This document shows positions 1,915-13,821 of a DNA stretch of 36,221 bases, one piece after another. A program made the position numbers and the translations under genes. The notes beneath the pieces were generated by a model. The model worked only from the letters and a program-made list of their open reading frames with translations. It had not been told where the DNA came from and made no database searches. The stretch comes from a virus: IMG/VR virus record IMGVR_UViG_3300034407_002785, positions 1-36,221 of that record, one strand, 5' to 3'. Numbering within the stretch: the stretch's first letter is position 1; each line of letters opens with the position of its first letter.

Positions 1915-2463
1915 CTAGAGTACGGTATTTGTCCAGAAGTTTGCTTGATCCTCTACAGGCAACCAGTCACTCGGACTGTCACCAAAGAATAGCTCTGTTA
2001 AAAGAGCGGCTTGCATCCCGTGCTTCTTAGCAAGGTATAAGTTCTTATAACCCCTGTCGTGCTTCCAAACTTCCTTTACCCCGCGTATTCTTCTATCGGG
2101 AAACTTTCCTGCGAACTGATCTAGTATAAGTTCGGCTTGCATCTTAGAATAAGTATCTCCTTTCAATACAAGAATCATTGCGCCTTTGGCGAATCCATTA
2201 AAAGCATTAAAGTGAGGTTCTATACTGGCATTACGTCCAAGTCTTAAGAGCTCCTTGGCAGCGCCATCAATACCATTGATGCGGGTAGCTGAGTAAGCAT
2301 CCATCTGACGTAACATAATAGAAGCATATACAAACTCGCTGTATTTATCGTCCCAACTCATTGCCCCCTGAGCCTTAGGAGTGTGAGGAATAATAAACCC
2401 CCATTTAAGTTTAATGGCTTCCCCTTCTCCATAACCAGGAGCAGGTTTTCGGCAAAATATCAT
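1915..2463 (-). CDS. Zinc-dependent N-acetylmuramoyl-L-alanine amidase (endolysin candidate)
   Basis: The 182-aa sequence fits the Amidase_3 fold in compact form. IPHT gives H27 as a zinc ligand candidate, E43 is suitably placed for the second, and IEPHFNA (H84, N86) matches the SIHxNA motif holding the third. LLTELFF (E157) matches the C-terminal catalytic glutamate strand. These enzymes cut the bond between muramic acid and the stem peptide. There is no signal peptide and no obvious cell-wall-binding domain, so it would need a holin or spanin pathway to reach the wall. The start is supported by AAAGGAAG five bases ahead and overlaps the helicase stop by 4 bp (ATGA). Its position inside the replication operon is unusual for a lysis gene. 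Confidence 0.8.
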   Translation of the reverse strand: MIFCRKPAPGYGEGEAIKLKWGFIIPHTPKAQGAMSWDDKYSEFVYASIMLRQMDAYSATRINGIDGAAKELLRLGRNASIEPHFNAFNGFAKGAMILVLKGDTYSKMQAELILDQFAGKFPDRRIRGVKEVWKHDRGYKNLYLAKKHGMQAALLTELFFGDSPSDWLPVEDQANFWTNTVL

Positions 2464-7434: not shown

Positions 7435-7947
7435 TTACTTGTTGGTTATATGAGTCCATGACCTTCCGGCTCTAATAGACTTAACAAAGCTTACAGGAAC
7501 ACCCAGACCCTCCGCGATGTATTTTCTAGAATGGTTAGGCATGGTTAATATTGCTAAAACCTGTGACTCGGTGTATTTACTGGCACCGTTTACCTCGCCT
7601 CTTCTTGGCTTATGCAAGCCAGTCTTAAATGCGTGCTTAAGATTCAAAGACCTATTGCTCCATTCTAGATTTTCAACTCTATTGTCTTGCTTATCGCCGC
7701 TTATGTGATTTACTTCCGTGTAGTTGTTTGGATTTTCTATAAATGTTTTTGCCACAACTTGGTGCACTAAAAAGTTTCTTCTTTTACCTTTTTCGACAAA
7801 AAGACTAAGCCTTAAGTATCCCTCTTTTGTAACGTAAGGATTCATAAGACCTGTTTTATTTTTCGAGTTCTTGGCGCTTGTATAGATTTTACCGCATCTC
7901 GAAGCACTATATTTAGAGAGAGCGAAGGGTATTTTACTTGTTTGCAT
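7435..7947 (-). CDS. HNH homing endonuclease (free-standing)
   Basis: This 170-aa protein has the HNH_3 core: VHQVVAKTFIENP, then EVNHISGDKQDNRVENLEW, then SNRSLNLKHA. The catalytic His-Asn-His triad lies in HQ, NH and N-rich turns typical of phage homing enzymes. The N-terminal segment (YSASRCGKIYTS, then YVTKEGYLRLSL) resembles NUMOD4-type strands. The C-terminus (GASKYTESQVLAIL through FVKSIRAGRSW) looks like a helix-turn-helix DNA reader. I start at 7947, which overlaps the transglycosylase stop by 14 bp and has GAGG ahead; the longer frame to 8067 lies wholly inside the transglycosylase gene. It is probably a mobile gene inserted after the lysin. Confidence 0.9.
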   Translation of the reverse strand: MQTSKIPFALSKYSASRCGKIYTSAKNSKNKTGLMNPYVTKEGYLRLSLFVEKGKRRNFLVHQVVAKTFIENPNNYTEVNHISGDKQDNRVENLEWSNRSLNLKHAFKTGLHKPRRGEVNGASKYTESQVLAILTMPNHSRKYIAEGLGVPVSFVKSIRAGRSWTHITNK

Positions 7948-8539
7948 TTTTAATAGCCTCAAGTGCTTTGGCAGTATATTCTCTTGTGCCGCGCAGCACT
8001 GACCAGTACCTTGACGCTCCAAGCCAACCTTTAGACAGTGACTTACCTGCAATTGAATTATCCCCACGCTCTTTAATAAGTGCCGTGAATATCTTAACCG
8101 CGCACTTAATGTTTTTGATCGGGTCTTTTAATTCTGCTTCGTTCTTAAAGCCGCAATTACCTCGCTTACTATAGTTAGCCGATTGAATACTTATTTGGTA
8201 AAGCCCTGTGCTATTTACACCGAACGATTCTCTATAAACAGTGCTCGGACTATACTTACTTTCATAATATGCCATCTTAACTAATATCTTCGCGTAGAAA
8301 GCCGTTAGATTTATACCTGTCTTATATCCAAATTCTTTAGCGTCTTTGGTTACGATTGTATCTAGCTTTGATGCTTTAATTTGATCAACAAGAGCTCTAT
8401 CCCAAGCACTGTTACCCCACTCACCCTTAATACTTCCTGTCTCAACTGGTTTTACTACAGGAGAGGTTGGAACCTTTTGATCGTCAACGACAACAGATAC
8501 GCAACTAGACAACATTAACAAAACGATTAAATACTTCAT
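7934..8539 (-). CDS. Lipoprotein lytic transglycosylase (SLT-like) endolysin
   Basis: This 201-aa protein begins with a lipoprotein signal (MKYLIVLLMLSSC, lipid-modified C13 predicted) and a proline-rich linker. The catalytic domain from about residue 75 has YYESKYSPS (E93 as general acid), YRESFG and GLYQIS, the ES...GLxQIS signature of the SLT/goose-lysozyme superfamily that cuts the MurNAc-GlcNAc bond. Two cysteines in the domain could pair. Lipid anchoring is odd for an endolysin: it would be secreted by Sec and held to a membrane, so lysis timing may not need a large-hole holin. It sits 2 bp downstream of the XhlA-like gene, which supports a lysis role. AAAGGAT precedes the start. Confidence 0.85.
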   Translation of the reverse strand: MKYLIVLLMLSSCVSVVVDDQKVPTSPVVKPVETGSIKGEWGNSAWDRALVDQIKASKLDTIVTKDAKEFGYKTGINLTAFYAKILVKMAYYESKYSPSTVYRESFGVNSTGLYQISIQSANYSKRGNCGFKNEAELKDPIKNIKCAVKIFTALIKERGDNSIAGKSLSKGWLGASRYWSVLRGTREYTAKALEAIKNANK

Positions 8540-8541
8540 AA

Positions 8542-8811
8542 TTATCCTTTAAGAAATTCTAATATCTTACTACCGAAAGCACCACCGCCAACTCCAGAAG
8601 CTGCCATGTAAATTAACATCTTCCAAGTCTTAGTTTCTTGCTTTTCGATACTACCTTCATTCTTACTTACTCTGGTTCCGAGCCCATCTATTTTAGTAGA
8701 GACTTCTGAAACTTGTACACGTACATCGGAGATTTTATCAAGTGTCTTAGCACTTGACTCTGTTAGAGATTTAATCTGAGCCATTAACATGGCATTAGAA
8801 CCGTTATCCAT
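8542..8811 (-). CDS. XhlA-like coiled-coil protein with C-terminal membrane anchor, holin candidate
   Basis: The 89 residues divide into an amphipathic coiled coil (about 8-62, with hydrophobic spacing in ISDVRVQVSEVSTKIDGLGT) and one membrane helix with small residues (MLIYMAASGVGGGAFGSKIL, about 65-84). This is the layout of XhlA-type holin-associated proteins and of several phage lysis membrane proteins. It lies between the receiver-like gene and the transglycosylase, overlapping the former by 8 bp. The role could be holin, pinholin-like or anchor for the lysin. Confidence 0.75.
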   Translation of the reverse strand: MDNGSNAMLMAQIKSLTESSAKTLDKISDVRVQVSEVSTKIDGLGTRVSKNEGSIEKQETKTWKMLIYMAASGVGGGAFGSKILEFLKG

Positions 8812-9151
8812 ATATAGACCTTAGATATTCTTTGACATCTCCCTTTAACAGGAATTTTATATTGTCGAAAGATAGAGTATCACTTGAGGTAGCGATACAT
8901 TTTATACTGTCGTGACTGTAGTCTTTTGAGGGGCGGTCGTCTATTTCTGGAGTAACCCCTCGGCAATCCACTAAAGCAAAGTCGAATTTTTTTAGTAATT
9001 TAACAGGGTATATTTCAAGGGATGGGAGATTGGGAAGCCAGTGCATCTCTACATCTAACTTGCGGCAAATAGAGTGGATTAAACAAGCCTCTATAGGAGA
9101 ATCTTCTATGTAGATTATTCTTCGAGTTAGAGGGTTTAAGGGTTTATCCAT
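8804..9151 (-). CDS. Response-regulator receiver (REC)-like protein
   Basis: The 115-aa sequence follows the receiver fold pattern. Strand 1, RIIYIEDS, carries the acidic pair E16/D17. Strand 3, FDFALVDCRG, carries a candidate phospho-acceptor D62. Strand 4, IKCIATSSD, offers T88, and FLLKGD carries K103. These are the CheY D12/D13, D57, T87 and K109 positions in the right order and on strands of the right type, though alpha3-beta5 is shorter than usual. No output domain is present. It is the first gene of the lysis block, behind a promoter-like sequence and a perfect palindrome. It could be a phospho-switch reading a host kinase, or only a protein-interaction fold. The ribosome site AAGGA is 11 bases from the ATG, rather far. 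Confidence 0.62.
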   Translation of the reverse strand: MDKPLNPLTRRIIYIEDSPIEACLIHSICRKLDVEMHWLPNLPSLEIYPVKLLKKFDFALVDCRGVTPEIDDRPSKDYSHDSIKCIATSSDTLSFDNIKFLLKGDVKEYLRSIYG

Positions 9152-9228: not shown

Positions 9229-9456
9229 TTACCCCTTATATTTCATCGCTTCAACCCATTTACGCAAGTCGTTATCCGTAACCTTGTCCACGTAAACCGG
9301 TCCTAATAGTCTTCCTTGGAGACAATCGGGACAAGTCACGGTCTTCCAGGAACTTATCGCCTGTGTATTGGGGCATAATATACCGCAATAGGTAGTACGT
9401 TCTCCCCGTGGGGAGGGGTCTTTGAGATTAGATCCGTGGAGGGTTTTATGTTTCAT
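9229..9456 (-). CDS. Small zinc-ribbon-like protein
   Basis: This 75-aa protein has two cysteine pairs, YCGILC and TCPDC, separated by 15 residues, which could bind one zinc ion. Tail residues are basic and aromatic (LRKWVEAMKYKG). Its first five residues MKHKT, and the 16 bp around its start, are identical to those of the gene starting at 10246, so part of its 5' end was copied or exchanged. Function is unknown; phage proteins of this type often bind nucleic acid or a host factor. Confidence 0.65.
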   Translation of the reverse strand: MKHKTLHGSNLKDPSPRGERTTYCGILCPNTQAISSWKTVTCPDCLQGRLLGPVYVDKVTDNDLRKWVEAMKYKG

Positions 9457-9470
9457 TCTTCCCTACTTGT

Positions 9471-9815
9471 TTAAGTATCTGCTGTCGTGGTGATGGGGCG
9501 TAATAGCCCACTAATAACGCCCTTGTATCTTGCGTAGTCCCTCTCTATATTTTCTATCTTCTTATTCTTCTCGGTTATCTTATTTTTTAGCCTATCTATT
9601 TCCTCACCTGTCCCGTAATACATAGTCTCTTCTAAGACTTCCGAATAGCAATCGTTACAAAAATGAATATCTATTTTTCCCTCTCTAAGTTTAAATCCGG
9701 ACGAGAACAGTACATAATTTGTCAGATCAACACTGATGCGACTATATATCCCCTTTCCCTCTTCGTTCCATCTACCGCAACCATTACATATTTGCTTATA
9801 TAATACACTCATCAT
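9471..9815 (-). CDS. Zinc-ribbon plus coiled-coil protein with frame-shifted tail
   Basis: This 114-aa protein has CNGC near the N-terminus and CNDC at about residue 53-56, a four-cysteine zinc site, followed by a coiled coil from about 70 to 98 (EEIDRLKNKITEKNKKIENI). The last residues, TTTADT, are read in another frame from DNA that is identical over 17 bp to the 3' end of the next gene upstream, where it encodes RQQIL. The end is therefore probably a rearranged remnant. ATGATG gives two possible starts behind AGGAG. It overlaps the upstream gene by 4 bp (ATGA). Function unknown. Confidence 0.6.
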   Translation of the reverse strand: MMSVLYKQICNGCGRWNEEGKGIYSRISVDLTNYVLFSSGFKLREGKIDIHFCNDCYSEVLEETMYYGTGEEIDRLKNKITEKNKKIENIERDYARYKGVISGLLRPITTTADT

Positions 9816-9849
9816 ATTTCTCCTAGTTGTTCAAGTATCTGCTGTCGTG
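9473..9849. repeat. 17-bp direct repeat at the 3' ends of two neighbouring genes
   Basis: AAGTATCTGCTGTCGTG occurs at 9473-9489 and again at 9833-9849, 360 bp apart, with a few more matching bases on each side. In the upstream gene it codes for RQQIL in frame; in the downstream gene it is read one frame off and ends the protein early. It marks a duplication or recombination between accessory genes. Confidence 0.75.
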
Positions 9850-10246
9850 TTGTTCGGGCGCGCTTGCCGCCAACTTCATAACTTTCGCCATCCTCTTTAT
9901 CTATCCATGACGAAACATCCGATAGAACTATCGCACCATCAGTATCTCTGTACTCCCAAGCACCACCATCACCATAAAACTCAATCGTTCCCATCGCCAA
10001 ATCAAGCAGGGCGCGAAGCTTTTGGTTTTCCTTCATCATCTCAAGACTAATCTTTGCTTTACTCTCGCAATGACACTCGTTAATTTTTGCTTTCTTGCGA
10101 GACTCTCTAAGGGCTTCATTACTCTCTTTCAGCTTTTGGTTTTCTCGTTCTAAATAATCCCATGCTCCTTGACCTAAATCAGTGCCTAAATAATCGACGC
10201 CTTCGACCCTCTCGCTGAACCATGATTTATATGTTTTATGTTTCAT
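9812..10246 (-). CDS. Coiled-coil accessory protein, unknown function
   Basis: The 144-aa protein starts MKHKTYKSWFSERV, similar to MKRKTFEEWFKKTG in the next gene upstream, so the two N-termini are probably paralogous. Residues 30-85 form a heptad-patterned, charged helix (ENQKLKESNEALRESRKK, then MMKENQKLRALLDLA), broken by CHC. The C-terminus has an acidic region (DKEDGESYEVGG) and ends in a basic helix, RQQILEQLGEI. It overlaps both neighbours by 4 bp as ATGA. I do not recognise a family; sequences of this kind are common early-operon accessory proteins. Confidence 0.65.
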   Translation of the reverse strand: MKHKTYKSWFSERVEGVDYLGTDLGQGAWDYLERENQKLKESNEALRESRKKAKINECHCESKAKISLEMMKENQKLRALLDLAMGTIEFYGDGGAWEYRDTDGAIVLSDVSSWIDKEDGESYEVGGKRARTTRQQILEQLGEI

Positions 10247-10491
10247 TCCTTCATCCCCTTTATTTTATCAAACGCTTCATCGACAATGCTAGAGCAATGT
10301 AAATCGTACCTATTATTTATTTGCTCAATAGCTTCCAAAAGAACCTCGTTTTGCTTTTCTAGGTGGGTTATATATTCAGAGTGGGCATCGAACGCATTCA
10401 TCATGGGAACTATTAACGGCTTTATTGATGATTCGTGTGCTGATGAATAACCTGTTTTCTTAAACCACTCTTCAAATGTTTTACGTTTCAT
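10243..10491 (-). CDS. Small coiled-coil accessory protein
   Basis: This gene encodes 82 aa. I choose ATG 10491 because it is where MKRKTFEEWF begins, paralogous to the neighbour's MKHKTYKSWF, and because it overlaps the stop of a 52-codon upstream gene as ATGA; the frame is open to 10542. A helix from about 30 to 60 (EYITHLEKQNEVLLEAIEQI) should form a coiled coil. Function unknown; it may pair with the coiled coil of the following gene. Confidence 0.62.
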   Translation of the reverse strand: MKRKTFEEWFKKTGYSSAHESSIKPLIVPMMNAFDAHSEYITHLEKQNEVLLEAIEQINNRYDLHCSSIVDEAFDKIKGMKE

Positions 10492-10646
10492 AATAAACAC
10501 CAGTGAATTGTTGCGGTCGGTATAGCAAAAAATGACACACATAGAAAGCTAGTAACAAGACCCTTCAAAAAATCGGCCCCGAGTGCGCGAGAGACTACAA
10601 GAAACCACCCACAATAATGCAGTAATATTATTTTGTACCAGATCAT
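10488..10646 (-). CDS. 52-aa membrane micro-protein (two predicted spans)
   Basis: The frame fills exactly the apparent gap between two accepted genes. Its ATG overlaps the stop of the upstream gene (GAATGA) and its TGA overlaps the start of the downstream gene (TTATGA). The protein reads MIWYKIILLHYCGWFLVVSR, a short linker, then GLVTSFLCVSFFAIPTATIH, two hydrophobic segments of about 17 and 20 residues. There is GAGG a few bases ahead of the ATG. The double ATGA junction is hard to obtain by chance and supports real coupled translation. Role unknown. Confidence 0.65.
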   Translation of the reverse strand: MIWYKIILLHYCGWFLVVSRALGADFLKGLVTSFLCVSFFAIPTATIHWCLL

Positions 10647-11014
10647 TCCTCACCCCAATTTTCATCAACTTCTAAAAGAAATGATCGTCCTGTCCATGTA
10701 AGGAATACGTCTTGTGCATATCTTGAATACGACTCCCCCTTAACATCTATAAAATCTTTGGTTAATAAATTACTTCTCAAGTGTCCACACTTGCCTATCC
10801 ACTCAAAGAACTCAACGGTTCGAGGTTTCTTTGGTTCGGGATATTTGCAGTGCTCTATAATATTATTAATGTTTTCAGCTTGTTCCCCAATGGATTCATT
10901 AGATCTTTTCCAACTGAAAAATACATGACTATATCCTACATACTCGATAGTAATTAAATCCCTATCCTCATCTAGAAACTGTGCGCCTTTTTTAATATCT
11001 TCTCTTTTAATCAT
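10643..11014 (-). CDS. Hypothetical early protein
   Basis: This 123-aa protein is not recognised. It opens MIKREDIKKGAQFLD, the phrase of small beta-barrel proteins that begin with a short helix and a GxxF/W strand, followed by alternating strands (LITIEYVGYSHVFFSW). The C-terminal half contains WIGKCGHL and a strand pair ending FLLEVDENWGEE. It overlaps the upstream gene by 8 bp and the downstream membrane micro-gene by 4 bp, so it belongs to one translational chain. A beta-barrel accessory or inhibitor role is only a guess. Confidence 0.6.
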   Translation of the reverse strand: MIKREDIKKGAQFLDEDRDLITIEYVGYSHVFFSWKRSNESIGEQAENINNIIEHCKYPEPKKPRTVEFFEWIGKCGHLRSNLLTKDFIDVKGESYSRYAQDVFLTWTGRSFLLEVDENWGEE

Positions 11015-11306
11015 TAAAAACCTCTCTATCTAAATCTGGTCTGCGTTGCCAGCCAGTATAGAGTGACTCCATTTTTGTAAACCATTTAACCTCACCATCA
11101 TTCATATCCTCACTAGCATAAAGCTTAACTGGCGGTTTTTGCTTGATATGGGGTTTGAATATCTGTGAGAGGAGGTCAATGCGTACACTGCCATAACTTA
11201 AATCGGTTCTCTCGTAGCATATTCTCTGTTCGTTGATCGCCACAACTTTTACAGGTGGATCGCCCTCGCAAACCCACTCACTACCTATTATATTATCATT
11301 CCCCAT
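11007..11306 (-). CDS. Hypothetical early protein, beta-barrel-like
   Basis: The 99-aa sequence starts GSEWVCEGDPPVKVVAIN with strands (RICYERTDL, SVRIDLLS) that resemble a KOW- or SH3-like small barrel. The C-terminal third carries DGEVKWFTKMESLYTGW. A loosely similar strand order is seen in the following gene, so the two may share ancestry. The start overlaps the stop of a 45-codon acidic gene by 11 bp. I do not recognise the family. Confidence 0.58.
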   Translation of the reverse strand: MGNDNIIGSEWVCEGDPPVKVVAINEQRICYERTDLSYGSVRIDLLSQIFKPHIKQKPPVKLYASEDMNDGEVKWFTKMESLYTGWQRRPDLDREVFND

Positions 11307-12306: not shown

Positions 12307-13821
12307 TTACAGACGGGTTACAGTTACATTTAAGGATGTTTCAAGTTCATCCTTGGTTACACTACATAAAGGTTCCCCCTTCCATCTAAATTTGGTGAAG
12401 AAAGCCTCGAAGTCACTAGCTTGCATAAACTGTTGACCTCTTAGAGGGGTGCCTCCATGTAATTTCTTAAGGTTCTTTTTATGTTGATTCTTTGCTGCAT
12501 AATAAGTGAAGCTGTCGTCCTCACTATCTTGAGCGACTTCTTTAAGATCAGACTTCTCCACTAAAGCCGTTGCTAAATCTCTAACAACTTCAAAGGGACA
12601 TGAATCAATAACGGCTCGCTCGTAAGTATGTCCATGATAGTAATCGATGGCACTGTATCTAAAGTCCTTAAAATTATTTAATACCCAATACCCTAGATTA
12701 GCCATAAATTCTGGATTGTTCAACGCTTCTAGATATTCTCTAACAAAATCGGGACCGTGCTCGTGCAATATATGAAATCCGGAGTCATCGAGGATAGAAA
12801 CCCGTCTATCTCCGGGGGTTACATTGACATCTCTAGTATTATTAGATGTGAAAAACATACTCCATGTATTACTCACAGGTATTTCAGTTTTATTTTTACG
12901 GTTGATGGACATAACTGGATCTAATAGTTTCTTAAACTGGTTTTGATAACTAGGGTACAGCACAAATTCATCCATACATAAGGCTCTACATCGGTACAAT
13001 GGGTCCTTAAAAGGAGATCCCGTAAAAAACTCCTTACTAACTGGGGCATATGCATTATTTACACCAACAAGCGCCGAAGGCAATTTAGCCATCACCGTAG
13101 TCTTTCCCGTGCCGTGCGTTGGGTGAATCACCCCAGTAGCGACGCAATTACGACTATTGATCATGTGATATAAGGCGCAGTAGTACCTCTCTAGGCTCTC
13201 CTGATTGTCAAATCGGGGCTCTATAACCTTTCTATGCCTCTCATCCAAAGGAGCTCTTAGATCGTCTTCAAACTGCCAAGGAGGACGTATATAAGAGTTA
13301 ACTGCGGGCATATATGTCTTCCCGCTTTCAAGGTAAACAGGTAATTTATCCGGTAACCTCGAAGGAGAATACCCTACTACTACAGCAGGTAGAGTAGGGC
13401 TGACTTCATTCTTCCAAATAGAGGCAGTATAAGTGTCTTTATAATTATCAAAAGCGACTGGGGAGATATGTCCTACTTCTTTATCTATTAGGATGTACTC
13501 ACCTGTCTCCACGTTCCTAGCAGGGTAGTGTTTCTCCCTGATAAGTGCGCTAGTCTCATCTAACTCAATGGATTTCCCGTCACTACGGGCGGGAGAACTT
13601 TCTAAAAGGTCCGTAAAGAGTTTCCTCTTATCAAACTCTGATAAGGGATTATCAATAAGCTCGATCCGCAGCTTACCTACATCTGGGATCATCTCTTGAT
13701 ATTGCTTAACGATCTCGTTCAGATTCTTAGCAAACTGGGAAGGGGTATATTTTATCCCCTCAATATATAGGGACTCTCCCTTGTGTGAGAGGTTTAAATT
13801 CTTAAATGTCTCATGATTCAT
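12307..13821 (-). CDS. SF3-type helicase/primase-like replication ATPase
   Basis: This 504-aa protein has Walker A GTGKTT (237-242, K240), Walker B LCMDEF (D284, E285), the SF3 motif C sensor FFTSNN (N327) and an arginine pair after it (GDRR, 337-340). SYIRPPW at 177-182 resembles the conserved lead-in of D5/DUF5906-type phage helicases. The 180-residue N-terminal part shows no DxD primase signature I can trust, so helicase is firm and primase is not. It is the first gene of the leftward operon, as expected for an initiator helicase loaded near the origin. AGGAGA precedes the start. A leader terminator-like hairpin lies upstream. Confidence 0.85.
   Translation of the reverse strand: MNHETFKNLNLSHKGESLYIEGIKYTPSQFAKNLNEIVKQYQEMIPDVGKLRIELIDNPLSEFDKRKLFTDLLESSPARSDGKSIELDETSALIREKHYPARNVETGEYILIDKEVGHISPVAFDNYKDTYTASIWKNEVSPTLPAVVVGYSPSRLPDKLPVYLESGKTYMPAVNSYIRPPWQFEDDLRAPLDERHRKVIEPRFDNQESLERYYCALYHMINSRNCVATGVIHPTHGTGKTTVMAKLPSALVGVNNAYAPVSKEFFTGSPFKDPLYRCRALCMDEFVLYPSYQNQFKKLLDPVMSINRKNKTEIPVSNTWSMFFTSNNTRDVNVTPGDRRVSILDDSGFHILHEHGPDFVREYLEALNNPEFMANLGYWVLNNFKDFRYSAIDYYHGHTYERAVIDSCPFEVVRDLATALVEKSDLKEVAQDSEDDSFTYYAAKNQHKKNLKKLHGGTPLRGQQFMQASDFEAFFTKFRWKGEPLCSVTKDELETSLNVTVTRL

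Follow-up and report, generated by a model that had tools for sequence, protein, structure and literature searches.

Stand-alone receiver domains encoded by phages are already known, e.g. CDS-30 of Alteromonas phage V22 (PMC7289586). The cRec domains of jumbo phages are divergent receivers, for which a role in the processing of cyclic nucleotides has been proposed (PMC7824862). Rhodobacter has a single-domain response regulator, Osp, that binds the kinase CckA directly and thereby inhibits it (PMC9430884), and VqmA of phage VP882 provides a case of lysis control via a host signal (PMC10426928). Stand-alone receivers were also found here on viral contigs, i.e. L096 and L242 (154 aa) and L180 (130 aa). 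L096:2998–3462 and L180:2971–3363 encode clear CheY-like receivers with KPF motifs. The L180 receiver gene is located between a gene for a coiled-coil membrane-type protein and HNH/terminase genes, upstream of the terminase gene. No recognised lysis genes are present beside the L096 or L180 receivers in the stretch read.

The open reading frame described here encodes a predicted 115 amino acid protein in a viral DNA sequence of 36,221 nucleotides (IMG/VR record IMGVR_UViG_3300034407_002785), termed the window. An initial annotation had presented its product, from motifs, as a CheY-like receiver candidate that lacks an output domain, and the gene as overlapping a holin-like gene. The open reading frame is present and displays the residues named there, i.e. 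E16-D17, FDFALVD with D62, T88 and K103. No output domain was found in it, and it does share 8 bases with the start of the 89-aa gene at position 8811; the ATG of that gene lies inside the last bases of the 115-aa open reading frame, ATATATGGATAA. The sequence AAGGA, situated 5′ of the ATG of the 115-aa open reading frame, is a plausible ribosome-binding site. Codon usage is neutral (0.011) and thus argues neither for nor against coding. No membrane segment or signal was detected in the 115-aa protein. The positions of this and the other features are listed in Table 1.

Table 1. Open reading frames of the window that are compared in the text.
Feature	Position	Strand	Properties
115-aa open reading frame	8804–9151	(-)	orphan soluble protein; residues 12–62 resemble receiver beta1-alpha1-beta2-alpha2-beta3 (E16, D17, D57, D62)
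89-aa holin-like protein	8542–8811	(-)	coiled-coil-like N-terminus and one C-terminal hydrophobic segment (hydropathy); XhlA-like architecture
201-aa lipoprotein	7934–8539	(-)	LMLSSC lipobox; transglycosylase SLT domain (PF01464, E 2.4e-8, 34.0 bits vs cut-off 21.3)
HNH endonuclease	7435–8067	(-)	homing-type matches (phrog_59, E 2e-39)
182-aa endolysin-family protein	1915–2463	(-)	phrog_435 endolysin, E 2.1e-8; phrog_2742, E 2.5e-5

The 115-aa gene is part of a minus-strand run that extends from 13.8 kb down to 0.8 kb and is made up of early and replication genes together with small open reading frames. No promoter specific to the gene stands out, and the region contains fewer promoter-like sites than shuffled sequences do. 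The neighbouring minus-strand open reading frames at 9229–11306 are small, with no family match over the cut-off for any that was scanned. Three small open reading frames near the gene (9229–9456, 9812–10246 and 10243–10542, all on the minus strand) have similar N-termini, MKHKTLHGS, MKHKTYKSW and MKRKTFEEW, the last from an internal start. These possibly represent a duplicated leader.

The 115-aa protein is an orphan. Searches of viral contigs, phages, plasmids and species genomes by tblastn and peptide patterns gave no homologue, nor was a sequence match obtained in Pfam, PHROG, NCBIfam, PADLOC or PDB sequences. The best phage and plasmid matches (E 0.7–9, inspected at H1 and H26) are not receivers. 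The phage itself does have relatives: its polymerase shares 31% identity with the one from a Silvanigrella phage, and its terminase is 63–80% identical to those of contigs L008–L015. In the stretches read, the 115-aa gene is absent from the polymerase and terminase relatives (L002–L004 and L008–L015), most of which are partial contigs, and other genes occupy their upstream regions. No phage with the same cassette was found when the SLT lipoprotein, a primase-like protein (12307–13821) and the holin-like protein were used as queries.

With respect to the receiver signature, the first half of the protein bears some resemblance to known receivers. The sequence IIYIED ends in the acidic pair E16-D17 at the end of beta1 and aligns with the DD or ED of receivers, and FDFALVD places D62 at the phospho-acceptor position at the end of beta3. 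The spacing from D17 to D62 is 45, where the range in 105 receivers is 42–48, and D57 and D62 (DxxxxD) are in receiver order and spacing. The candidate Thr/Ser at the end of beta4 is T88 or S89, at 26–27 residues from D62 (mostly 27–30 in receivers); the automatic alignment is off by one at this point. The spacing from T88 to K103 is 15, whereas the Thr/Ser-Lys spacing is 22 in 104 of the 105 receivers and 24 in the other one, and Leu110-Arg111 is found at the usual place of the lysine. Thus the five active-site residues are not all present at the distances seen in receivers. The CheY-like positions claimed in the initial annotation are therefore borne out for the acidic pair and the D62 strand but not for the lysine.

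The half-signature (hydrophobic-[DE]D, 42–47 residues, hydrophobic-D) occurs in 186 of 300,000 shuffled sequences and in 2 of 943 natural proteins, in none of them N-terminally. A stricter version with D-x4-D occurs in 54 of 1,000,000 shuffles, and the full signature, including T/S and K, in none of 300,000; neither was found among the 943 natural proteins. These patterns were defined post hoc, when the protein was already known, and the protein had been picked from about 60 genes, which leaves a moderate strength after correction. At that moderate strength, an N-terminal half-signature in register is rarer than chance.

The Pfam model PF00072 Response_reg (cut-off 30.2 bits) does not match the 115-aa protein at E<=1 or at E<=10, and a receiver HMM built from 36 domains scores it at -0.8 bits, a value equalled by 190 of 2000 shuffles. 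A weakly positive result comes from hhalign: against a profile made from 105 receivers of bacterial and viral origin, residues 12–62 align with beta1–beta3 in register, with a score of 20.0. That score was reached by 2 of 400 shuffles and by 7 of 943 natural N-termini, none of them in that register. With profiles of equal depth, the number of shuffles scoring as high was 7 of 250 for receivers, 16 of 250 for anticodon-binding domains and 164 of 250 for B12-binding domains. Multiple alignment depends on the sequences included: MAFFT with the phage receiver of L096 alone pairs D17, D62 and K103, and with 26–43 receivers beta3 of the 115-aa protein is out of register. Two automatic alignments conflict over FLLKG, which is beta5 in one and alpha4 in the other. 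The assignment to the receiver family thus finds backing in the in-register profile score of the first half, but the HMMs are silent and the lysine spacing is wrong. The sequence hints at a receiver-like origin for the first half but does not establish it; the C-terminal half is not recognisably that of a receiver.

A single-sequence AlphaFold model is uninformative (pLDDT 33.6). A receiver-guided model used six viral receivers picked for in-register alignment and is therefore a best case, biased to the receiver fold; its mean pLDDT is 66, with confident regions only at residues 11–40 and 51–60 and values <50 at 68–76 and 100–104. Alpha3 and alpha4 are missing in this model. Its best PDB matches, to be read with its low confidence in mind, are class-II tRNA-synthetase anticodon-binding domains (best Z 9.4), which are above or level with receivers (Z 7.4–7.8). 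No Foldseek match was obtained at E <0.001, and the viral Foldseek library gave nothing below E 0.02.

The explanation favored here is that this phage, whose DNA polymerase is related to that of a Silvanigrella phage, encodes a cytosolic alpha/beta protein that stands alone and most likely had a single-domain response regulator as its ancestor. The second half would have been shortened, with loss of alpha3, alpha4 and the standard position of the beta5 lysine. Lone receivers work by docking on partners. If it has this origin, the protein most likely works through contact with other proteins: during infection it would serve as a decoy for, or an inhibitor of, a histidine kinase or phosphorelay protein of the host, and a phospho-switch for the timing of lysis is the less likely mode. 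If the protein is a degraded receiver, the decoy or inhibitor role would be the likeliest one because the residues of the phospho-switch are incomplete. We infer the receiver descent, the partner and the effect of the protein from these features. Descent from a receiver, considered by itself, is about evenly balanced; the complete proposal, i.e. a shortened receiver serving as decoy or inhibitor, is tentative and rather doubtful as a whole.

It is nearly an even prospect that the protein is instead an unrelated small alpha/beta protein whose strand-end Asp residues are receiver-like by chance, and that it belongs with the many short orphan genes of the early region and has another host-interaction role. 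The protein is an orphan in all searches and its C-terminal half fits a receiver poorly, the choice from among about 60 genes makes the motif statistics less telling, and the open reading frames at 9229–11306 are themselves short and, where scanned, lack family matches over the cut-off. Against this, half-signatures with this order, spacing and N-terminal location are uncommon, and the receiver profile aligns with the protein in register.

The initial annotation placed the 115-aa gene first in a lysis block, and the next two genes are indeed the holin-like gene and the SLT lipoprotein gene; however, replication genes share the long minus-strand run in which the gene is embedded, and a further endolysin gene is located elsewhere. 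As a label, "lysis block" reasonably describes two genes but does not stand for a proven unit. The PHROG matches of the 89-aa protein are weak, the best being phrog_5211 (E 7e-4, unknown function), with phrog_937 hemolysin at E 0.087, and its identification as a holin is putative and unproven. Past the SLT lipoprotein gene are the HNH endonuclease gene and then a family-A DNA polymerase gene. In DNA sequence this gene is 73–76% identical to HNH genes from phages of Lactococcus and Bacteroides. As a homing-type gene directly follows the SLT gene, this location may be a site of gene insertion.

The endolysin-family gene is outside the supposed lysis block, 5.5 kb from it. It adjoins a helicase gene, apart from the SLT/holin-like pair. 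Its product may be the endolysin proper, and this phage may have two cell-wall hydrolases. At the left end of the window, two open reading frames on the plus strand (148–498 and 350–784) overlap, one with a hydrophobic segment and the other with a lipobox, LLNSC. No family match was found for either, and they could be holin- or spanin-like late genes. Contig L012 has a comparable pair, a small membrane protein and a lipoprotein.

A soluble antiholin or lysis regulator that functions without phospho-chemistry would suit a gene positioned directly before, and overlapping, the holin-like gene. This is improbable in that the protein matches no PHROG family, antiholins included, has no membrane segment or signal, and would act on a holin that is itself unproven.

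The initial annotation went further and proposed that phosphorylation of D62, through a host kinase or through acetyl phosphate, alters binding to the 8542–8811 product and so tunes the timing of lysis. The gene adjoins the holin-like and SLT lipoprotein genes, with probable translational coupling, but it is found in one genome only, and related phages do not have it in the stretches read. In addition, there is no lysine at the usual spacing, the endolysin proper may be encoded at 1915–2463, and no described precedent was found in the literature searched. Phosphorylation-controlled lysis is thus a guess drawn from adjacency in one genome and is very improbable. In its fullest form, i.e. a minimal phage receiver that obtains its phosphate from host kinases or acetyl phosphate, is translationally coupled to a holin and times lysis according to host state, the idea is hardly to be expected.

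The fold could also be like that of an anticodon-binding domain, and the protein might then partner the family-A DNA polymerase, whose gene lies 2 kb downstream, in the manner of the mitochondrial polymerase gamma accessory subunit. In favor of this, HisRS, ProRS and PolG2 (the latter at Z 7.5–7.8) are the top matches of the receiver-guided model. The idea is extremely doubtful, the model being weak, PF03129 not being matched at E<=1 and its hhalign match covering 12 columns out of register.

At present the 115-aa protein amounts to a single orphan sequence that carries half of a signature. Should it be a receiver, the few receivers known to be encoded by phages would gain a strongly reduced member, and phage interference with host two-component signalling would be indicated; were lysis control also true, it would provide a new route for coupling phage lysis to host physiology.

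Compared with CheY-like receivers (PF00072), the protein shares a length of about 115 aa, the beta1-[E/D]D motif, DxxxxD at the end of beta3, the 45-residue spacing and the lack of an output domain. It differs from them in giving no HMM match, in the T-to-K distance of 15 rather than 22, in having no usable alpha3 or alpha4 and in an alpha5 that is short or absent. With V22 CDS-30 and the genes of L096/L242 and L180 it would have in common that a phage gene encodes a lone receiver, but L096 and L180 are clear receivers and the 115-aa protein is far more divergent. By description it can be likened to cRec, which is also a divergent phage receiver with conserved Asp residues; however, linkage to NAD/ADP-ribose enzymes is what defines cRec, and no such enzyme was recognised beside the 115-aa gene. 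VqmA shares a concept with the lysis-timing idea of the initial annotation, in that a phage protein senses a signal of the host and makes the lysis decision, but it is a quorum-sensing receptor and transcription factor and not a receiver domain. The likeness to Osp is in the proposed binding to a kinase by a protein without an output domain, and is a functional analogy only.
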